A DNA stretch of 39,917 nt from a virus. Where the stretch lies: positions 1 through 39,917 of the IMG/VR virus record IMGVR_UViG_3300036399_000385; one strand, given 5' to 3'. The translations under genes were made by a program, and so were the position numbers. The notes below the pieces were generated by a model. The model was not told the origin of the DNA, ran no database searches, and worked only from the letters and a program-made list of their open reading frames with translations. The stretch's first letter is position 1; each line of letters begins with the position of its first letter. Below, piece by piece: positions 4,925 through 13,209 of the stretch.

Positions 4925-6562
4925 TTAAAGAGTCTCTAAACCATCAATTACGATTTTACCGTAGAATTCTGGTCTTACGATTTTCTTAGCGTAACGAGTC
5001 ATAACTCCTCTTCTTGGAGTGAAGTTAGTTGGGTCGTACACTAATGGAGTCATAATCAACGGAACGTATGGAGCGTAAACCGCACCTGTCTCGAAGAAGT
5101 TAGAACCTTTAAATCCTAATAAGATAACGTTCTCAGTCATATAAGGGTTTTTGTAAACATCGTATCTGTTTGAGATTTGTCCGATGTTAGTTACACCCGC
5201 TGCGAAAGTTAATGCATCTTTACCAGGGTTTGCAGAGAATCCGTTCATTGATTCTAAGATTGTAGCTACGTTAGGAGAAACAACAACGAAGTTTGCTCCA
5301 CCTCTCATAGTCAATTGGTGAATCTTGTTAGAGATTTTCTGTAATTTGATTCCTAAAGTCTGGAACCAAGTTGATTTTGTGTATGCTGAAGCTGCTGCTG
5401 CATTTGAATCAATTGTGAAAGCAGAACCATTCCAATCATATCCAACTCTTGCTGACCAATATTCAGAAGAGAATGCGTTTTGCTGCAACATCTCTAAGAT
5501 TTCTAAGTCAATCTCTAATGAGATATACTCAGATAACATTTGAGTTAATTCAGCTTCTGCATCTACAGAGTGGTAAGCGTTTAAGTCTTGCGCTAATTCT
5601 GGAGTCCAAATTGCTTTCAACTTACGAGTCTTAGCAACGATAGGCTCAGATTTCAATTCTAATTCGATTTCTGGGATTGCTAAAGCAGTTGGGTTATTAT
5701 AATCTGTACTTCTATCTTCGAAATCACCTCTTGAAATATCAGTTGGTTGTACGTGGTATGCTAATTCACCACCTACAGAAGTTGCACCTGCATAAGTACC
5801 AGCCGCATCAACTGCTGCTATAAATACTACGTTAGTACCATTTTTTACAGTAAATTGAGGATATAATGTATATCCAGAACCACTTTGTGCAAAATCAAAT
5901 GCTCTTACACCATTGAAATCAGCATCTGCTGGCAATGCTACAGTTAATTTTTTAACTTTACCTGCTGCGTAAGATGCAGAAACAGTTGAGTTAGATAAAT
6001 CAAATGAAATATCTGCTAAAGATGCAGATGCTAAAGTAGCTGCAGTTGCAACTGCAGTATCATTGATTGTGTATCCAAAACGACCTGCACCATACAAACC
6101 ACCTTCAGTAGCTTGAGTTGAACCTAATTTGTTTCCTGATGGAGATTGTGAATCTTTACCAAAAGTACCACCGTTACCAAACATAGAAGAACCAGAAGCT
6201 GGTCTATTTGCATCGTTAGCAGTACCATATTTAAAGTCCATATAGAAAATAAGACCTGATGGTAAGTTCATTGGTTGAACCGAAACGAATTCTTTCGCTG
6301 CGATAGAACCGAAGATACGACGTACCAATGGAAGAGCAACACCTGCCCACTCTTCTGAACCAGAAGAAGTACCTGTACGAGTTGCCTCGTCCAATAATTG
6401 CTTAGCTTGGTTTTCTAACATTACTGCCATACCATGCTTAGTTGTTTCAGAACCTACTCCTTCAAGTAATCCTGTTTTTTCCCACTTGCCTTTCAAACCT
6501 CTAGTTTGCTCAAGCATTACGCTCTGTGGGTTAGCACCTGTCATTAATTTTTTTAAGTTCAT
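4925..6562 (-). CDS. 23: Major capsid protein (T4 gp23-like)
   Basis: A 545-residue capsid subunit with clear gp23 hallmarks: M-L-E-N-Q near residue 48, V-Q-P-M-N-L-P-S-G-L-I-F (95-106), R-K-L-K-A-I-W-T-P-E-L-A-Q-D-L (313-327), and near the end Y-A-P-Y-V-P-L, F-T-P-R-R-G-V-M-T-R-Y and the closing V-I-D-G-L. In T4 the prohead protease removes about 65 N-terminal residues at an L/I-x-E site; here L-D-E|A at residues 57-60 sits at the matching place. Residues about 160-280 are an Ala/Gly/Ser-rich insertion-type domain. The leader (TTTAATTCAAAATG) has no Shine-Dalgarno sequence. It is co-oriented with the scaffold gene 20 bases upstream and is followed by a strong terminator. Confidence 0.95.
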   Translation of the reverse strand: MNLKKLMTGANPQSVMLEQTRGLKGKWEKTGLLEGVGSETTKHGMAVMLENQAKQLLDEATRTGTSSGSEEWAGVALPLVRRIFGSIAAKEFVSVQPMNLPSGLIFYMDFKYGTANDANRPASGSSMFGNGGTFGKDSQSPSGNKLGSTQATEGGLYGAGRFGYTINDTAVATAATLASASLADISFDLSNSTVSASYAAGKVKKLTVALPADADFNGVRAFDFAQSGSGYTLYPQFTVKNGTNVVFIAAVDAAGTYAGATSVGGELAYHVQPTDISRGDFEDRSTDYNNPTALAIPEIELELKSEPIVAKTRKLKAIWTPELAQDLNAYHSVDAEAELTQMLSEYISLEIDLEILEMLQQNAFSSEYWSARVGYDWNGSAFTIDSNAAAASAYTKSTWFQTLGIKLQKISNKIHQLTMRGGANFVVVSPNVATILESMNGFSANPGKDALTFAAGVTNIGQISNRYDVYKNPYMTENVILLGFKGSNFFETGAVYAPYVPLIMTPLVYDPTNFTPRRGVMTRYAKKIVRPEFYGKIVIDGLETL

Positions 6563-6582: not shown

Positions 6583-7902
6583 TTATTTAATAATACCAGC
6601 TAATTTTTTAAATCTGTTAGCTACTGCTACAGATTCAGAAATTACTTGCTTTTGAACCGATGGTTTTGTAGATTTAACTACTTTACTTGCGATTCCTTCT
6701 GCAATTGATTTCTTAGCAATTCTGTTTGATGAAGTGTATTTGAAATTCTCTGCTAATGTAGAGTAAACCAATTTAACTTCTCTTACTGATTTTGTTCTAT
6801 CCAAAGTTTCGATAACTTTAACTTTTTGTTCGTTAGTCATATTGTGAGCTCTGAACAATTTGTTAGCGAATAATAATTTTGCGTTTAACAAATTAACTTC
6901 GTTGATAGTTGATTGTAATGATTTGATAGTTTTGTAAGCTTCTTGTAAATCTGCTTTTAATTCTTCAGCATCTTCTTCTTCACCTTCTTCAACTTTATCT
7001 TTCAAATCATCTTCCATTTCACGAAGAATTTCTTCTAAGTCGATTACTTTCTCACCATCTGGGTCAGTACCAGCTTCAGCTCCGTCAGTATAATCTTCTT
7101 TCAATCTTCTACGTGATTCTCTTAATTTTTTAGATTCAGTTTTTGGTTCTTCTTCAGCCGGAGCTTCTTCATCACCTTCTAATTCAGCTAATTGTCTTCT
7201 TAATTCTGCAATTTGTGCTGCGTTAGGGTCTTCTTCTGCTGGAGCTTCTTCTTCAGAACCTTCTTCTTCACCTAATTGTGCTTCCAATTCTCTGATGATA
7301 GCTTCTAATCCCATTTCACCTTCTTCTTCATCTGCATATGGGTTTTCTTCTTCTTCGAAAGGATTTTCTTCTTCTTCACTACCTGTATTTGAGAATGGGT
7401 TTTCTTCTTCAGTAGCTGCAAAAGGATTTTCTTCTTCTTCACCACCTTCTCCTTCTAATTCTGCCAATCTAGCTCTTAATTCAGCTATTTCTCCAGCGTT
7501 AGGGTCTTCTTCTTCTTCACCACCGAAGTCATAATCATCTTCTTCGTTGATGTCTGCTACTTTTTCGTAGTCAGTTCCCGATTGTTCTGGTTTGCCACCA
7601 TCTTTAGTTACACCAACTGATAAATCAGTCATTGCAGTTAAAGTTGGTTGAGAACCCGGTGTCTCTGCTGCATCAGTTCCAACTTTAGAACCAATACCAG
7701 TAGAATCCAATTCTTCATTTGTAGCTTCTTGGTCATCATCCGCTTCCATTTCTTCAGCTTCTGCTCTCATCTTTTGAGATAAGATAGATTGTAATCTTGG
7801 AGTGAATGCTTCTTCAAGTGCTAACTTTGCGTTTGCTAATGCAGTTTCCTTTACGGCTTTAGCATCGGCGATTGCTTCTTTTAACAATTTTGAGTTTGCC
7901 AT
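6583..7902 (-). CDS. 22: Prohead scaffold / core protein (gp22-like)
   Basis: A 439-residue, very acidic, helical protein directly upstream of the capsid gene, the place of T4 gene 22. gp22 forms the assembly core and is degraded by the prohead protease. The N-terminal helix (1-50) and C-terminal segment (about 310-439, with N-L-L-N-A-K-L-L-F-A-N-K-L-F-R) look like the folded, capsid-contacting parts. Between them lies a low-complexity Glu-rich tract with two coiled-coil repeats and four E-N-P-F/Y motifs. L-K-E|A (7-10) and L-E-E|A near residue 30 fit the protease consensus. It is longer than T4 gp22 (269 residues), mainly because of the acidic tract. Confidence 0.85.
   Translation of the reverse strand: MANSKLLKEAIADAKAVKETALANAKLALEEAFTPRLQSILSQKMRAEAEEMEADDDQEATNEELDSTGIGSKVGTDAAETPGSQPTLTAMTDLSVGVTKDGGKPEQSGTDYEKVADINEEDDYDFGGEEEEDPNAGEIAELRARLAELEGEGGEEEENPFAATEEENPFSNTGSEEEENPFEEEENPYADEEEGEMGLEAIIRELEAQLGEEEGSEEEAPAEEDPNAAQIAELRRQLAELEGDEEAPAEEEPKTESKKLRESRRRLKEDYTDGAEAGTDPDGEKVIDLEEILREMEDDLKDKVEEGEEEDAEELKADLQEAYKTIKSLQSTINEVNLLNAKLLFANKLFRAHNMTNEQKVKVIETLDRTKSVREVKLVYSTLAENFKYTSSNRIAKKSIAEGIASKVVKSTKPSVQKQVISESVAVANRFKKLAGIIK
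7174..7506 (-). repeat. Coiled-coil duplication and ENPF repeats in the scaffold
   Basis: Two 19-residue copies start with DPNA and contain I-A-E-L-R-x-x-L-A-E-L-E-G (residues 133-151, bases 7450-7506; residues 225-243, bases 7174-7230). Between them four E-N-P-F/Y motifs occur at residues 158, 167, 179 and 186 (bases 7333-7434), separated by acidic spacers. This is a recent internal duplication or expansion in a disordered region. Confidence 0.8.
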
Positions 7903-8016
7903 TTATTTTTTTATGATTTACTTGTGAAGTTATTGAATACAACTCCAATGATATTCTGCTGATTGTTCGGTCACGCCTTATAAGGAAGGGTATTCATTAA
8001 TCAACTATAAAAAGTA
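7903..8016 (-). promoter_or_regulatory. Leader and presumed promoter region of scaffold-capsid genes
   Basis: This is the longest non-coding stretch (7903-8127 including two hairpins). Between the second hairpin and the scaffold start, the minus strand holds about 110 bases that are clearly less AT-rich than the other gaps, including a perfect CCTTATAAGG palindrome (7976-7985). The scaffold and capsid genes need high expression, so their promoter probably lies here, but I see no exact TATATTTATA copy. No tRNA fold was evident. Confidence 0.4.
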
Positions 8017-8035
8017 ATCCCATAATGAATGGGAT
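8009..8035 (-). terminator. Second hairpin of a tandem terminator
   Basis: ATCCCAT (8017-8023) pairs with ATGGGAT (8029-8035) around a five-base loop. On the minus strand a run of five T follows after three bases. It lies 39 bases beyond the stronger hairpin at 8077-8098, so it may be a back-up terminator. Confidence 0.5.
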
Positions 8036-8073
8036 ATTTGATAATAAGTATATAACTTTTTAGAAAACTAAAG

Positions 8074-8098
8074 AAAAATCCCAAATTTCTTTGGGATT
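8074..8098 (-). terminator. Intrinsic terminator after the Dps-like gene
   Basis: AATCCCAAA (8077-8085) pairs with TTTGGGATT (8090-8098), a 9-bp perfect stem with a 4-base loop. On the minus strand the stem runs into TTTTTC. It lies 30 bases past the stop codon of the Dps-like gene and separates it from the scaffold gene. Confidence 0.75.
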
Positions 8099-8121
8099 AT
8101 CAATATTTTTTTGTATATTTG
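8090..8121 (+). promoter_or_regulatory. Possible antisense promoter of Bacteroidota type
   Basis: On the plus strand TTTG (8090-8093), a 20-base spacer and TATATTTG (8114-8121) fit the Bacteroidota TTTG / TAnnTTTG promoter layout. No plus-strand gene follows; transcription would run antisense into the Dps-like gene. The TTTG box also forms part of the terminator stem, so this may be chance in AT-rich DNA. Confidence 0.25.
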
Positions 8122-8127
8122 TAGATT

Positions 8128-8499
8128 TTATTGGTGATTTACCAATTTGTATTTAGTTTTATATAATAAAGATACAACCGTATCAATATCATTTTGTATC
8201 CAACTATCTTGTAATTTAGGATTTGTTCTTAGTTTTGCAACTAAATTACATAAAGTTTCAAAATAATTAATTATATTTTTAATATCATTATTTTTATCTA
8301 ATGTTCCAATTCCTGAAATTTGTATTAAACCCTCTTTACCTTGATATGCTTCAACTATTCCATCTATTAAACCACCAATAGAATCATAGTATTCACCCAA
8401 TGCAACGTGTGCAGAGTGCGAACCTATACCTTTAACTCCCCAATGAAAAGAATGTGCTTGAGTTCTACTTTGTAATAATAATGATGCTAACTCTTCCAT
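8128..8499 (-). CDS. Dps-like mini-ferritin
   Basis: A 123-residue four-helix ferritin-like protein. H19 (in F-H-W), H31, D46 and E50 have spacings of 12, 15 and 4 residues, exactly those of the Dps ferroxidase ligands (H51, H63, D78, E82 in E. coli Dps), and the F-H-W-x-V-K-G context is typical of Dps. It is shorter than cellular Dps (about 160 residues), with a clipped first helix and no basic DNA-binding tail. Family knowledge suggests iron or peroxide chemistry and possibly DNA protection; I infer either a virion protein or a protectant made late in infection. It lies inside the head-gene block behind its own promoter-like element and is followed by tandem terminators. Related phage proteins are often annotated only as domains of unknown function. 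Confidence 0.8.
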   Translation of the reverse strand: MEELASLLLQSRTQAHSFHWGVKGIGSHSAHVALGEYYDSIGGLIDGIVEAYQGKEGLIQISGIGTLDKNNDIKNIINYFETLCNLVAKLRTNPKLQDSWIQNDIDTVVSLLYKTKYKLVNHQ

Positions 8500-8513
8500 T
8501 TATTTTGTTATTT

Positions 8514-9842
8514 CTAATAAATATAGAAAAAGTTAAAAAACTTATCAGATATTAACTTTTGACGAATTCTTTCCTTTGAACAATTGAAATATTTAGATGC
8601 TTCACTTAATGAATAAAATTGCAAACCATCGCATTCTATTATTGGTAAAGTAATACGAATTGTATTATTCCACATTTGTTCCATCTCATCATATGTAATA
8701 TCTACATTAGATATTTTTTTCCAATGTCTGTATAATGGGTTAGTTGAATTTAGATATTGTCTGGCTTCAGATTCTGTAATTTCCCCTTTTAGAACTTCTG
8801 AAATTTGTTTTGGTGATTCAAAATAGACACCATCAACTTCGTATTTAATATTTGGATTTGTTTCTTCTCCAATTATTTGCCATTCTTTATATTTTGATTT
8901 AGTTGAACAACACATTCTCTGAACATCACTTGCTACCAATTCACTTGGATTAATTGAAATTGCAGCTTCTCTAAATGATTTGTATTTTTTCCCATCCACT
9001 ATACATTTGTAAGTACCATCCCATTCAATATCTTCCGTTGCTAAATCAGGATTTCCTTTTACAAATACCAATATGTTTTGATGAACGGATGCCACCTTAC
9101 GATTACGATTAAAATATGTATCTACAATTCTAGACGCAGTATGTTGTGAATTAAATAAAATCATATCGTTATAAAAATTTAATCCATTTTTTTCACATAT
9201 ATCAATCGTTTTGTGAACCAATCCTTTATATTTTCCAATTTTATAATTTCTGGTTTTAGATTGCTCTCTTACTTCAGATACAACTATTGCGAAAAATCTA
9301 TTGTTTTTTAACTTTTTTGCAGCTTTACTTAATATACTGAAATACTTTTCATCAAAAGCATCATCTTCCATAGTCGATATATCCAACGGATTATCACTAT
9401 AAACTTCTAAGTCATAATAAGGTGGGCAAGTAAATACAAAATCATATTGTTCATCGTTAAGTGAGTTTAATACAACATCACTATCACCTATCATCCAAAT
9501 TGGTTTAGTTGATTGTAATCTATTTGCTTTAACTTGTTCCTCTGATAAATCTATTCCATTGTATTGAAATCCCATTTCGGTTGCTACAATACCTCTAACA
9601 CTTCCACCTGCAAACGGGTCTAATATCTTACCTTCCTTTGGAGTAAACCATTTGTACATATATTCACAAAGGGTTGCATCAAATATTGAGACATTCGTTT
9701 CTTCTATATCCCAAAATTTACTTTTTGAAATAGTACCTTCTCTACCTAATTCTGATTTAATTTTGTAAGTATTTGTCCACCATCGTTTACGGTCTTGCCA
9801 CTCTTTGGTACGAGTATCTAAAATTGAAAATGGTTTTATCAT
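8514..9842 (-). CDS. DNA methyltransferase with three homing-nuclease-type DNA-binding modules
   Basis: 442 residues. The SAM-binding motif D-P-F-A-G-G-S lies at 75-81 and the catalytic motif T-C-P-P-Y-Y-D at 138-144, as in amino-methyltransferases (N6-adenine or N4-cytosine). After the catalytic domain come three degenerate repeats (about 278-325, 333-378, 402-440) with the pattern V/C-D-G-x-x-x-x-S-x-x-x-A/I ... R-x-x-x-x-S ... W/F. They resemble the NUMOD/IENR helix-turn-helix modules of homing endonucleases, so they may set target choice. I start it at the ATG at 9842; an earlier in-frame ATG at 9881 lies inside a terminator hairpin. No partner restriction enzyme is nearby. It is probably an orphan modification gene that moved into the head block. 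Confidence 0.85.
   Translation of the reverse strand: MIKPFSILDTRTKEWQDRKRWWTNTYKIKSELGREGTISKSKFWDIEETNVSIFDATLCEYMYKWFTPKEGKILDPFAGGSVRGIVATEMGFQYNGIDLSEEQVKANRLQSTKPIWMIGDSDVVLNSLNDEQYDFVFTCPPYYDLEVYSDNPLDISTMEDDAFDEKYFSILSKAAKKLKNNRFFAIVVSEVREQSKTRNYKIGKYKGLVHKTIDICEKNGLNFYNDMILFNSQHTASRIVDTYFNRNRKVASVHQNILVFVKGNPDLATEDIEWDGTYKCIVDGKKYKSFREAAISINPSELVASDVQRMCCSTKSKYKEWQIIGEETNPNIKYEVDGVYFESPKQISEVLKGEITESEARQYLNSTNPLYRHWKKISNVDITYDEMEQMWNNTIRITLPIIECDGLQFYSLSEASKYFNCSKERIRQKLISDKFFNFFYIY
8516..8525 (-). promoter_or_regulatory. Variant of the recurrent element before the Dps-like gene
   Basis: The minus strand reads TATATTTATT, one base off the consensus, 16 bases before the Dps-like start. 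It overlaps the stop codon of the methyltransferase gene. Confidence 0.4.
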
Positions 9843-9848
9843 AGTAAC

Positions 9849-9858
9849 CGTAAATATA
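9849..9858 (-). promoter_or_regulatory. Variant of the recurrent element before the methyltransferase
   Basis: The minus strand reads TATATTTACG, directly behind the terminator at 9861-9887 and six bases before the chosen methyltransferase start. The layout is the same as at the fibre gene: terminator, element, start. Confidence 0.45.
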
Positions 9859-9860
9859 CA

Positions 9861-9887
9861 AAAAAAGCTTGGAATTACCAAGCTTTT
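9861..9887 (-). terminator. Intrinsic terminator after the 240-residue gene
   Basis: AAAAGCTTGG (9863-9872) and CCAAGCTTTT (9878-9887) form a perfect 10-bp stem with a five-base loop. T runs flank it on both strands, so it may be bidirectional. It ends the transcript of the gene at 9911-10633. Confidence 0.85.
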
Positions 9888-9910
9888 CTTTAATTATATT
9901 TTATTTGATT

Positions 9911-10633
9911 TTATGAAAAGTTAGGGTCTAACTCATCATCTTTACCCATATTAGAATAGTATCTTTCTTCCATATCTAACATACTAAGTAAGTTTTTTTG
10001 TTGGGATGTGATTTGTGATGTTATTGCTTGAATTGGTTTTAACATTTCTTCTTTCTTTTTAGGGTCAGTTTCCGCATTAAATTTTCTAGCATAATCTCCA
10101 CCATATTTAGATTTTCTTTCATCAGTTAATTCTTTTATTTTCTTTTTAACTGCTTCAATTTTTAAATAAAGTTTTGGAACTCTACTACCTACTTCCATTA
10201 TAGGAGTTTTGCAAGTTTTACATTCTCTCAATCCCAGTCTACTTTTCATTACATCTTCTGATACATCTGCGATTTCAAAGTATCTTCCTAAAACGTGCCC
10301 CATATCTTCATATAGAGATTCTAGTCTTTGTTCTTGTGCCTTCGCTTCCAATGATTCTTTTTCGAATGCAGATTGTAATTTTTTCAATTCACTCATATTA
10401 CGTTTAATAGTAACTCTATCAAACCAATCACCACCTTCTCTCAAAGTATATTCTTGTGCTGCATCTGCAATACCACCCAAAGTTTCAGCAACTTGTCTGA
10501 TGTCAGATTTTCTAGTCATTCCTTCTCTATGTTGTCCATAGGTAGAAATAATTTCTAAAAAGTGTCTTTTTAATTCAGTTGGGAGTTGTTGAAACTCTTC
10601 TGATTCTTTTAGTAAATCTTTTAAACGTATCAT
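9911..10633 (-). CDS. Helical head-core candidate with a targeting-type N-terminus
   Basis: A 240-residue, largely helical, charged protein of unknown family. The N-terminus (M-I-R-L-K-D-L-L-K-E|S) looks like the short capsid-targeting peptides of T4 internal proteins, with L-K-E as a possible prohead-protease site. Near residue 137 a C-K-T-C motif occurs; with no second pair it is not a clear zinc finger. Coiled-coil-like stretches lie at about 75-115 and 150-220. It is the last gene of its transcript and lies two bases after an 86-residue helical gene. I infer an internal or core head protein from the leader and location only. Confidence 0.7.
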   Translation of the reverse strand: MIRLKDLLKESEEFQQLPTELKRHFLEIISTYGQHREGMTRKSDIRQVAETLGGIADAAQEYTLREGGDWFDRVTIKRNMSELKKLQSAFEKESLEAKAQEQRLESLYEDMGHVLGRYFEIADVSEDVMKSRLGLRECKTCKTPIMEVGSRVPKLYLKIEAVKKKIKELTDERKSKYGGDYARKFNAETDPKKKEEMLKPIQAITSQITSQQKNLLSMLDMEERYYSNMGKDDELDPNFS

Positions 10634-10635
10634 AA

Positions 10636-10896
10636 TTATTTTGCTAAAATATCGTTTTTCTTAATCTTTTGAATGTATCTCATTAATTCTTGCTTATCCA
10701 TTCCCATAGCTTCAATTACTTTTGCTAATACAAGCATTTCTTTTTTACGAGAAAGACTCATTCCTTTAATTTGAGCTACCATTTTATCTAAATAACGTTC
10801 TACTGATACCGGTAAATTGGTATCCAAATCTTCTAAAGATTCTTTAACTACTTTATTGTTGATAGCTTTTCCAGGTACTAAGTTTACTAGTTTCAT
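10636..10896 (-). CDS. Small helical protein in the head block
   Basis: An 86-residue protein of unknown family. After an N-terminal segment M-K-L-V-N-L-V-P-G-K and V-V-K-E|S (a relaxed version of the protease site), the rest is predicted-looking amphipathic helix rich in Lys and Met (E-R-Y-L-D-K-M-V-A-Q-I-K-G). It has no cysteine and no membrane segment. It is packed between the display protein and the 240-residue gene, with gaps of 18 and 2 bases. It could be a small core component like T4 gp67/gp68, but only position supports this. Confidence 0.65.
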   Translation of the reverse strand: MKLVNLVPGKAINNKVVKESLEDLDTNLPVSVERYLDKMVAQIKGMSLSRKKEMLVLAKVIEAMGMDKQELMRYIQKIKKNDILAK

Positions 10897-10914: not shown

Positions 10915-12609
10915 TTATATATTTCCCATTTGCAATGAACCAGGTGTTGCTGGGAATGGATTAAGTTCTGAATAAGTTGCTCCTTCATTCGTAGCGTTAT
11001 GGTTATTTCCACTATTATCAGTTAATTGTGCGTTTAAATTATTTCCTTGGAATATTAACAATACTGTATCTGCTAAATCTGTTAATGAAGCATTTGGTTT
11101 GGTAAATCCTTCTGTTGGATATAATGCCGCATCTGTCCATCTAAAGTTACTCATCTTACCATTGAATCCAGAGTTATTTTCATTACCATATCCAATTGTT
11201 AATGGTAAATTTTGGCTAGAGATAGAACCTCCGTAAGCAGCTGATGCTATTTGATTACCATCTACAAACATATAAACATTAGAACCAGAACCCATAACTG
11301 CTATGTGATTCCAGTTACCTATTGTTGGAGCAAAGTTACCACCCATAACGTTTTGGTTATTTGCCCAGAAATACAATGTACCTGCTTCTAATGAGATTGC
11401 GTTAGCCGCAGGATATGTTCCGAAACTATAAGGTCTTGGGAATCCATCGGTATTAGCCATATTTACGAACATCTCAATTGTAAAGTCTCCTACTATATCA
11501 AAATCCGTACTTGCTGCTATTCCAACTCTAGCAGGAGGAGCTTGATTTACATAAACAGTCCAGTCTTTACTTACTAAAGAAGTTTTAGCAGTTGCTCCAA
11601 TACCTGTTGGTACGGCTGATGTGCCATCTTGTAAATTTACATATCCACCTTCTACACCACTACCATCTAACCATTGTAAAATATTATTTACAGCAGTTTC
11701 CGTAAGAGCTGCACCATTAATATTAACATTATCTAAATATCCTTCAGGTAAAATTACAGATGTTATACCTGAGTTGGATGATAAATCAACATTTATTAAT
11801 GCGGATGATACGTTACTTAAATCTATTTCACCAGTTAATCCACATCCATCTAAATCAAGATAAGTTAAACTAGTAAGTCCATTAAGGTTAGGTAATCCTG
11901 CAGAGAAATCACTATCATCTAATTCAAGTCTTTCTAATGAGGTACACCCTGCCACATTAACAGAAGTTAGAGATTTTTCTCCTTCTGTGTTAGGTATGAC
12001 ACAATCACTCACATCTATATCTATAAGACTTGTCATTCCTGATACATCAAGAGAGGTAAGTGCGTTATTATCTATTTCTAAATGTGTAAGATTTATAAGG
12101 TTTTGTAAGCCTCTTGCTTCTGTTACATTTGCACTATTATTACTTACAAAAATTCTAGTTACTAAACTTATATCACTAAAAGTAAGCCTAACTATATAAG
12201 GTTCTTCTCTATCTGTAAATGAATGGGAAAATCCATCATCACTTGCAATCTCATAAGTATCGGTAGTTTCATCACCCCAATCAACATCAATTGTAGTAAG
12301 AGCCGATACAATAATATCACCAAAACCAAATGTAGTACCATCTCCCGTTGATACTACTAATTCAATAGCGTTTGATGGTAAATCACTTTGTTGTTGCTGG
12401 ATAATCCCACCTCCACCACCGTTTGATGCTGCAACTGCCATAGCTTCGGCTTGTGTCATAGCTATTTGTTCTTGCATCAAATGAATTGCAATTCTTTGTT
12501 CTACAATTTCATTTAAATATATTCTGTATTGTCTTTCTACTTCATGTTGTGGAACTTTATTCATTCCAGGTAAAGTAGAAAACTGATACCAACTCATTTC
12601 ATCAACCAT
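10915..12609 (-). CDS. PKD / leucine-rich repeat / LamG display protein
   Basis: A 564-residue mosaic protein. Residues 1-62 form a helical anchor, followed by a linker with five Gly and four Gln (64-74). A PKD/BspA-type beta domain follows at about 80-150 (I-D-V-D-W-G-D-E), then leucine-rich repeats at about 165-350 (L-T-H-L-E-I-D-N-N-A-L-T-S-L-D-V and similar units), and a LamG/concanavalin-like jelly roll at about 365-545 (D-F-T-I-E-M-F-V-N; G-N-W-N-H-I-A-V; V-Y-M-F-V-D-G). Such domains bind sugars or proteins on surfaces. There is no signal peptide. Its place between protease and core genes suggests display on the virion head, as T4 Hoc displays Ig-like domains, to hold the phage to glycans or cells. 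The role is inferred. Confidence 0.8.
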   Translation of the reverse strand: MVDEMSWYQFSTLPGMNKVPQHEVERQYRIYLNEIVEQRIAIHLMQEQIAMTQAEAMAVAASNGGGGGIIQQQQSDLPSNAIELVVSTGDGTTFGFGDIIVSALTTIDVDWGDETTDTYEIASDDGFSHSFTDREEPYIVRLTFSDISLVTRIFVSNNSANVTEARGLQNLINLTHLEIDNNALTSLDVSGMTSLIDIDVSDCVIPNTEGEKSLTSVNVAGCTSLERLELDDSDFSAGLPNLNGLTSLTYLDLDGCGLTGEIDLSNVSSALINVDLSSNSGITSVILPEGYLDNVNINGAALTETAVNNILQWLDGSGVEGGYVNLQDGTSAVPTGIGATAKTSLVSKDWTVYVNQAPPARVGIAASTDFDIVGDFTIEMFVNMANTDGFPRPYSFGTYPAANAISLEAGTLYFWANNQNVMGGNFAPTIGNWNHIAVMGSGSNVYMFVDGNQIASAAYGGSISSQNLPLTIGYGNENNSGFNGKMSNFRWTDAALYPTEGFTKPNASLTDLADTVLLIFQGNNLNAQLTDNSGNNHNATNEGATYSELNPFPATPGSLQMGNI

Positions 12610-12618
12610 GCCACTATA

Positions 12619-13209
12619 TTAGTTTAATTCTATTAATATTTCTCTCATTAAATCTTGTGCTTTACACCATTTACCACACTCATCTGCAATCTTCTTCCAT
12701 TGTTTGGATTCGTTTACAGGTGCCATAAATGCTCCATGTGTAGATGGGTTTGAAACAAAATCCCAACCTACTAATTCAAAATCTTCCTGAACCATTACCG
12801 TACCATCTCTTAATTCTTTTACAGAACCCAATCCTCTTGATGAAATACCTAAACGGATATTGTTTTTTAATAATTCTTTTAAGATGTTACCCGATGGTGT
12901 AGAGAGGATTTCAACAGTTCCACAAACATCATCACCTTCCCAATAGATTTCTCTAACGTTGTGTGATACATTCTTTAAGTTGATAACCGGAGAATCTGGA
13001 TGGTCTAATTCACCTAATGCTCTTCTTTCGTTAATAAGTTGTTGGTATTTTTTACACTCTCTTTCAAGAATTTCTCTTGGGTATCTTCTACCATTTTGGT
13101 TTTCAGCACCTGCTCTTTGCAAAACACCTTTAACAAGTAAAGTACCGTTAGATTCTTCTTGTATTTTTGCTTCAAACAAATGAGTTTCTATCAATAATCC
13201 TTTGCTCAT
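12619..13209 (-). CDS. 21: Prohead maturation protease (gp21-like)
   Basis: A 196-residue serine protease of the T4 gp21/herpesvirus-assemblin type, which cleaves scaffold, capsid and internal proteins after (I/L)-x-E during head maturation. The N-G-R-R-Y-P motif (39-44), catalytic H70 in G-E-L-D-H-P and catalytic S123 or S124 in G-I-S-S-R-G-L-G-S are all present, and W-D-F-V-S-N-P-S-T (149-157) matches the family's C-terminal block. V-N-E|S at 165-168 could be a self-cleavage site. It overlaps the upstream core gene by one base (TAATG). Unlike T4, the scaffold gene does not follow directly; five genes intervene. Confidence 0.93.
   Translation of the reverse strand: MSKGLLIETHLFEAKIQEESNGTLLVKGVLQRAGAENQNGRRYPREILERECKKYQQLINERRALGELDHPDSPVINLKNVSHNVREIYWEGDDVCGTVEILSTPSGNILKELLKNNIRLGISSRGLGSVKELRDGTVMVQEDFELVGWDFVSNPSTHGAFMAPVNESKQWKKIADECGKWCKAQDLMREILIELN

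Follow-up and report, generated by a model that had tools for sequence, protein, structure and literature searches.

A phage methyltransferase fused in frame to three related I-TevI/IENR1-type modules that probably serve in target recognition

We describe a phage gene in which a methyltransferase core is followed in frame by three tandem modules of the I-TevI / IENR1-NUMOD type, and whose product is probably a solitary, mobile DNA amino-methyltransferase that uses the modules as its target-recognition part and marks phage DNA. The gene lies in the IMG/VR virus record IMGVR_UViG_3300036399_000385, the whole of which (positions 1 to 39,917, 39,917 bases) was analyzed and is referred to here as the window. 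Solitary phage methyltransferases are usually proposed to protect from host restriction, and this is the most likely role of the present enzyme as well, in that phage DNA would be marked so that nucleases of the host (or of a competitor) spare it.

The methyltransferase gene and its surroundings

The open reading frame at 8514-9842 on the minus strand has exactly the limits given in a preliminary description of this DNA. The start was placed at the ATG at 9842, and the N-terminus MIKPFSILDTR is kept in most relatives; an in-frame extension reaching a TTG, up to 9881, is likewise open upstream of this ATG. A T4-like head module surrounds the gene, with the following features.

4925-6562, major head protein, part of the head module
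6583-7902, acidic scaffold-like gene, called by position and composition
8128..8499, minus strand, DUF5856 / Dps-like (Dps/ferritin-like) gene, downstream of the methyltransferase and outside the insert (profile matches, relatives)
8514..9842, minus strand, methyltransferase gene, 442 aa, catalytic core plus three modules (ORF, Pfam and phrog matches, relatives)
9911..10633, minus strand, gene upstream of the methyltransferase, function not recognised, last 98 aa inside the insert
12619-13209, prohead protease, part of the head module

By head protein and protease the nearest named phages are a Microcystis phage record (Mel-JY01) and Flavobacterium phage immuto, and the viruses that carry the methyltransferase-module family probably have Bacteroidota bacteria as hosts. 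An Rfam scan of 7800-10700 gave no match.

The catalytic core

The N-terminal part had been taken for a normal amino-methyltransferase, an assignment borne out by matches to PF01555 (N6_N4_Mtase; E 5.2e-11, 43.4 bits against a cut-off of 26.7) and to two phrog profiles. The methyltransferase-core profile phrog_12517 (316 aa) matches residues 2-272 over most of its length with E 1e-75 and stops at the end of the core, leaving the modules unmatched, while phrog_498 matches residues 47-272 (E 2e-61).

9027..9842, minus strand, catalytic domain, aa 1-272, motif I before motif IV (PF01555, phrog_12517/498, permuted 2zie match, predicted class I methyltransferase fold)
9600..9620, minus strand, motif I, DPFAGGS, aa 75-81 (alignment of 31 sequences)
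9417..9431, minus strand, motif IV, TCPPY, aa 138-142 (alignments with relatives)

Residues D75, P76, F77, G79, G80 and S81 of motif I were invariant in the 31 aligned sequences. Motif IV has the form [ST]CPPY, a departure from the classical [DNS]PPY which we counted against the reading as a DNA amino-methyltransferase; it is TCPPY, SCPPY or ACPPY in the ParB-bearing relatives described below. Because motif I precedes motif IV and the two halves of the core align to 2zie in circularly permuted order, the core has an alpha/gamma-type motif order. In gamma-class methyltransferases the target-recognition domain is at the C-terminus, and the motif order found here would leave the C-terminus free for target recognition. 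The predicted fold of the core is that of a class I methyltransferase (Z up to 17 in a structure search), with the tRNA methyltransferases TrmN and Trm11 ranking at the top, a ranking that we read as reflecting the fold only. The full-length model has low confidence at about 225-254 and 266-328, and it therefore does not fix how core and modules are placed relative to each other. No nuclease domain (GIY-YIG, HNH, EDxHD, PD-(D/E)XK) was matched within the 442 residues, the non-module part being methyltransferase. On these grounds the N-terminal 272 residues would bind SAM and move a methyl group to an exocyclic amino group, either adenine N6 or cytosine N4.

Three C-terminal modules

Structure searches with the full-length protein were swamped by class I methyltransferases, and for this reason the C-terminal half was predicted separately, with 35 diverse relatives as input. 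The resulting model (mean pLDDT 91.4, pTM 0.76) contains the order strand, strand, helix, helix, strand (beta-beta-alpha-alpha-beta) three times.

8868..9017, minus strand, module R1, aa 276-325 (predicted fold with pLDDT about 90; hhalign to R2)
8709..8852, minus strand, module R2, aa 331-378 (fold as in R1; hhalign comparisons with R1, R3 and I-TevI; Pfam matches to I-TevI_DNA-bd in relatives)
8517..8651, minus strand, module R3, aa 398-442, I-TevI-type helix-turn-helix (Pfam PF20987, PDB 1i3j)

The assignment is firmest for R3. Pfam I-TevI_DNA-bd (PF20987) matches it at residues 402-440 just under the cut-off of 27 bits when the whole protein is scanned (E 1e-5, 25.8 bits) and above the cut-off when the C-terminal half is scanned (E 1.2e-6, 28.7 bits); the same model matches R3 in 16 of 16 relatives (best E 2.5e-8) and reaches 42.5 bits among relatives. 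NUMOD1 matches weakly, just below its cut-off. In a profile search of all PDB sequences the only significant match was I-TevI (1i3j, E 1.3e-6), at R3. Foldseek placed I-TevI first for the C-terminal half against the PDB (E 0.019, probability 0.97), as did VIA, in which R3 and I-TevI superposed with Z 7.5 over 43 residues (1.9 A, 35% identity), the fold of R3 being a beta-hairpin plus helix-turn-helix as in I-TevI 202-244. A Z of 7.5 is middling by itself but agrees with the independent sequence evidence for R3, which on sequence and predicted structure is a homologue of the I-TevI helix-turn-helix. The second PDB match of the C-terminal half in VIA was I-HmuI (Z 4.5); I-TevI and I-HmuI are both homing endonucleases. 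Homing-endonuclease and other helix-turn-helix matches lead the structure search of this half, and no methyltransferase target-recognition domain was among the matches listed.

The model I-TevI_DNA-bd also matched R2 separately in several relatives, while R1 alone had no Pfam match. Because a Pfam scan of R1 and R2 alone gave no accepted family, a one-shot domain scan is insufficient for the claim on R1, and the repeats were compared profile to profile (hhalign) with 60 column-shuffled controls for each comparison. Scores were 25.9 over 43 columns for R1-R2 (shuffles max 14.3), 32.1 for R2-R3 (max 15.6) and 19.9 for R1-R3, a narrow excess over a shuffled maximum of 17.6. Against the I-TevI profile R3 scored 48.8 (max 14.2) and R2 19.3 (max 16.4), and R1 compared directly did not rise above its shuffles. 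Since the scores among the repeats exceed those of the column-shuffled controls, we regard the three as related repeats, with R1 joined through R2. The preliminary description had proposed three NUMOD/IENR-like repeats at about 278-325, 333-378 and 402-440, and both the repeats and their boundaries hold by predicted fold and profile comparison.

The arrangement resembles that of I-TevI and of the GIY-YIG/HNH homing endonucleases with NUMOD1/IENR1 in that a catalytic domain with DNA as its substrate is followed C-terminally by tandem modules, DNA being the probable substrate of the present enzyme. It differs in that three copies of one module type are present, that no zinc finger or elongated segment was recognised, and that the catalytic domain is a methyltransferase and not a nuclease. 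The three tandem helix-turn-helix modules would recognise the target and lay the enzyme along an extended stretch of DNA.

Distribution and relatives of the fusion

Searches of IMG/VR gave 43 loci with the whole protein and 80 with the modules alone. The methyltransferase stood in frame ahead of the modules in all of the module loci scored (79/79), the few partial module loci being explained by contig ends. Neighbourhoods vary; many copies have protease and scaffold on either side, and others are found beside unrelated genes in contigs of up to 289 kb. Module identity drops to about 48%, with the second helices of R1 and R3 remaining strongly conserved, which suggests a constant target. Values of dN/dS were 0.01-0.13 for the core and mostly 0.0-0.4 for the modules (highest 0.52), indicating purifying selection on all parts of the fusion. 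A pattern scan of bacterial genome contigs, with tight patterns and therefore not exhaustive, returned one relative, of the core only, in a Thiotrichaceae MAG.

Relatives in other phages (25-52% identity) are confined to the core. Proteins from Listeria, Enterococcus, Haloarcula and Croceibacter entries, read at full length, bear a ParB-type domain before the core and end soon after it. The ParB-methyltransferase fusions of this kind (Listeria phage B054/LP041, Enterococcus phiFL3A gp36, HCTV-2 ORF11; phrog_498) share with the present protein the catalytic core at about 36-51% identity, the same motifs and the status of a solitary phage gene; they differ in their N-terminal ParB, in ending shortly after the core and in lacking the C-terminal modules, which are absent from the ParB-bearing core relatives in other phages. 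Because these full-length relatives carry ParB N-terminally and terminate after the core, C-terminal modules are joined to the core in this family alone within the set of sequences seen, and DNA-binding parts appear to have been swapped on one methyltransferase core. This pair, N-terminal ParB in one case and three C-terminal modules in the other, allows the role of each part to be asked.

We found no description of a methyltransferase with NUMOD, IENR1 or I-TevI-type modules in the open-access literature; the enzyme is known, the module is known and the combination is apparently undescribed. Modules for reading DNA that are familiar chiefly from selfish homing nucleases would thus be reused within a DNA-modifying enzyme, to place methyl marks and not cuts. 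In the ShiLan element, too, a homing nuclease is linked with a phage DNA methylase, but there a homing HNH gene sits out of frame within the methylase gene (PMC11855218), whereas the present gene has an in-frame fusion of the DNA-binding modules alone, with no nuclease. A fusion known from Lactobacillales likewise joins an N-methyltransferase to a domain of a superfamily that includes homing enzymes, but the fused part is an Slx1-like nuclease domain and not NUMOD modules (PMC1564403).

Recognition of the target

Most solitary phage methyltransferases act on short motifs, and the alternative that survives best, which we consider rather doubtful, starts from this. The protein would be an ordinary anti-restriction methyltransferase whose catalytic domain reads a short common motif, the modules being only a DNA tether of low specificity. 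The ParB-bearing relatives manage without modules, so that the core may recognise its target itself, and homing enzymes with such modules, the phage enzyme I-TevI among them, contact up to 30 bp yet are described as less specific (PMC3943268). Alignment with the ParB-bearing relatives, however, revealed no extra domain in the core after motif IV, so that only the modules are left as a separate recognition domain, and the strong conservation of the second helices of R1 and R3 would be needless in a mere tether. We therefore prefer target recognition by the modules.

A more specific form of the preferred reading is put forward tentatively, as a possibility more than an expectation, namely that the three homing modules guide methylation to an extended site of 15 bp or longer, making this a natural long-site methyltransferase encoded by a mobile gene among T4-like Bacteroidota phages. 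Such an enzyme would be a natural counterpart of engineered TALE- and zinc-finger-targeted methylases. If the modules do set the site, it would provide a compact and modular long-site methyltransferase, useful both as a tool and for testing how modular phage DNA recognition is.

Expression signals

The preliminary description gave the gene its own promoter-like box behind a terminator. Both elements were recovered, the hairpin as the top-listed terminator-like site in the first 20 kb, and both are conserved in relatives.

9860..9890, minus strand, intrinsic-terminator-like hairpin AAGAAAAGCTTGG-TAATT-CCAAGCTTTTTTT between the upstream gene and the methyltransferase (terminator scan, covarying arms)
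9851..9881, minus strand, promoter-like box overlapping the terminator: TTG (9881-9879), 20-nt spacer, TATATTTA (9858-9851) (conservation in 18 loci)

The hairpin, read from 9890 to 9860, has 13 pairs and is followed by GTATATTTA. Its arms covary in relatives (AGCTTGG/CCAAGCT, AGTTTGG/CCAAACT, GGTTTGG/CCAAACC), and across 18 loci they change together, with TTGG, CCAA, the T-run and GTAT.TTT constant. A TAT[AC]TTT[AG] box is conserved alongside the hairpin, and the invariance of GTAT.TTT in the 18 loci extends to other genomic positions, the hairpin/box element also preceding the methyltransferase in L093 and L109, in which the gene has another genomic position. The element was not seen before the methyltransferase in L058 or L126. 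The series TTG, 20 bases, TATATTTG fits the general Bacteroidota promoter pattern, and by this analogy the box may drive the methyltransferase as a promoter of that type. The upstream terminator would then insulate a mobile cassette from late head-gene transcripts, and a host-type promoter of its own would allow the methyltransferase to be made independently of the late genes.

These signals bear on a second alternative, which we judge unlikely, that the protein is a regulator whose modules bind one or a few fixed phage or host sites (for example the palindrome of its own terminator/promoter) and which controls transcription by binding or by methylation. Most loci do have a palindrome with invariant TTGG/CCAA 20-50 nt ahead of the methyltransferase start, and this palindrome accompanies the gene; the I-TevI DNA-binding domain also represses its own late promoter as an autorepressor (PMC3943268). 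A terminator, however, explains the oligo-T run and the covarying arms, and the hairpin is different or missing at L043/L128, L126 and L058.

Elsewhere in the window, at 8106-8121 on the plus strand, the TTTTTTTGTATATTTG box found before the methyltransferase recurs between the scaffold and DUF5856 genes, on the opposite strand, adjoined by a terminator-like hairpin at 8098-8077 on the minus strand; this box could drive an antisense or small RNA.

Insertion between head genes

That the gene had been inserted between head genes, as first proposed from the sequence, is upheld by empty sites in close relatives. Homology to the related contigs L167 and L170 runs from 10925 to 10207, stops there and resumes at 8513, from which the inserted piece was taken to be 8514-10206, with one boundary coinciding exactly with the methyltransferase stop codon.

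8514..10206, minus strand, insert, a segment missing from close relatives: 98-codon extension of the upstream gene, terminator/promoter and methyltransferase (homology breaks against L167/L170)

Empty sites were counted in the 80 closest relatives by protease, 52 of which had enough flank. The methyltransferase was absent in 49 of these 52, some with a 97-99% identical protease, and present in three; one of the three is a record identical to the studied window, and in another a contig end leaves a fragment of 35 residues, located beyond DUF5856. Phage immuto has no methyltransferase at the corresponding site. The upstream gene (9911-10633, minus strand) is 98 aa longer than in methyltransferase-free relatives, and this extension matches, at 71%, the 3' end of a different gene that precedes the methyltransferase in L034. 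The insert may be called a moron, the term for a mobile gene that joins a phage operon and brings its own signals.

In contig L185 (about 9.3-10.2 kb) a methyltransferase start fragment follows the DUF5856 gene instead of preceding it, which means that close phages do not all share one insertion point. A LamG-like structural protein gene (564 aa, 10915-12609, minus strand) lies between the protease and g10636; it looks like a second recent insert because in most close relatives g10636/g9911 follow the protease almost directly.

The precise insertion between conserved genes, the patchy presence and the homing-enzyme type of the modules would also be expected of a former homing endonuclease in which the nuclease was replaced by a methyltransferase, maintaining itself as a cassette of no benefit to the phage. 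We regard this as improbable: a methyltransferase supplies no cutting to drive homing, and purifying selection in all parts together with a stable position in many lineages points to a useful function.

Search for module-bearing nucleases

In 18 large related contigs, which are incomplete and were scanned with limited sensitivity, I-TevI_DNA-bd matched solely inside the methyltransferase and NUMOD4 not at all; GIY-YIG gave nothing over the cut-off in the 13 large related contigs scanned for it. The IMG/VR module search returned methyltransferase fusions alone and no nuclease with the modules. A tblastn search of 50,697 phage records with the C-terminal 172 aa gave no homologue of the triple module at E 0.01. 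In several neighbourhoods no restriction-type nuclease was recognised beside the methyltransferase by similarity and inspection, with family-library scans covering some of the neighbours.

With neither a restriction nuclease beside the gene nor a module nuclease in the 18 contigs, the earlier suggestion that the enzyme protects against the homing nuclease of a rival phage is unsupported rather than refuted. Its full form, in which the methyltransferase methylates the site of a rival nuclease with the same three modules and so makes the phage immune to invasion, is the least probable reading, for the common ancestry of the modules and I-TevI and the differing presence of the gene among very close phages are set against the negative searches of the 18 contigs, IMG/VR and the 50,697 phage records.

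Besides the methyltransferase, NUMOD1 weakly matched 124-aa ORFs and HNH-like proteins of about 190-200 aa with a helix-turn-helix in the large related contigs, all below the cut-off; neither group represents a module fusion. The large related phages repeatedly encode proteins of about 190 aa that combine a helix-turn-helix with cysteines in an HNH-like pattern (L137 1144-1707, L142 1345-1917).

The T4 thymidylate synthase gene is the homing target of I-TevI. In L128 (5185-6519, 8563-9726) a thymidylate-synthase-like gene is located about 2 kb downstream of the methyltransferase, which is probably a coincidence.
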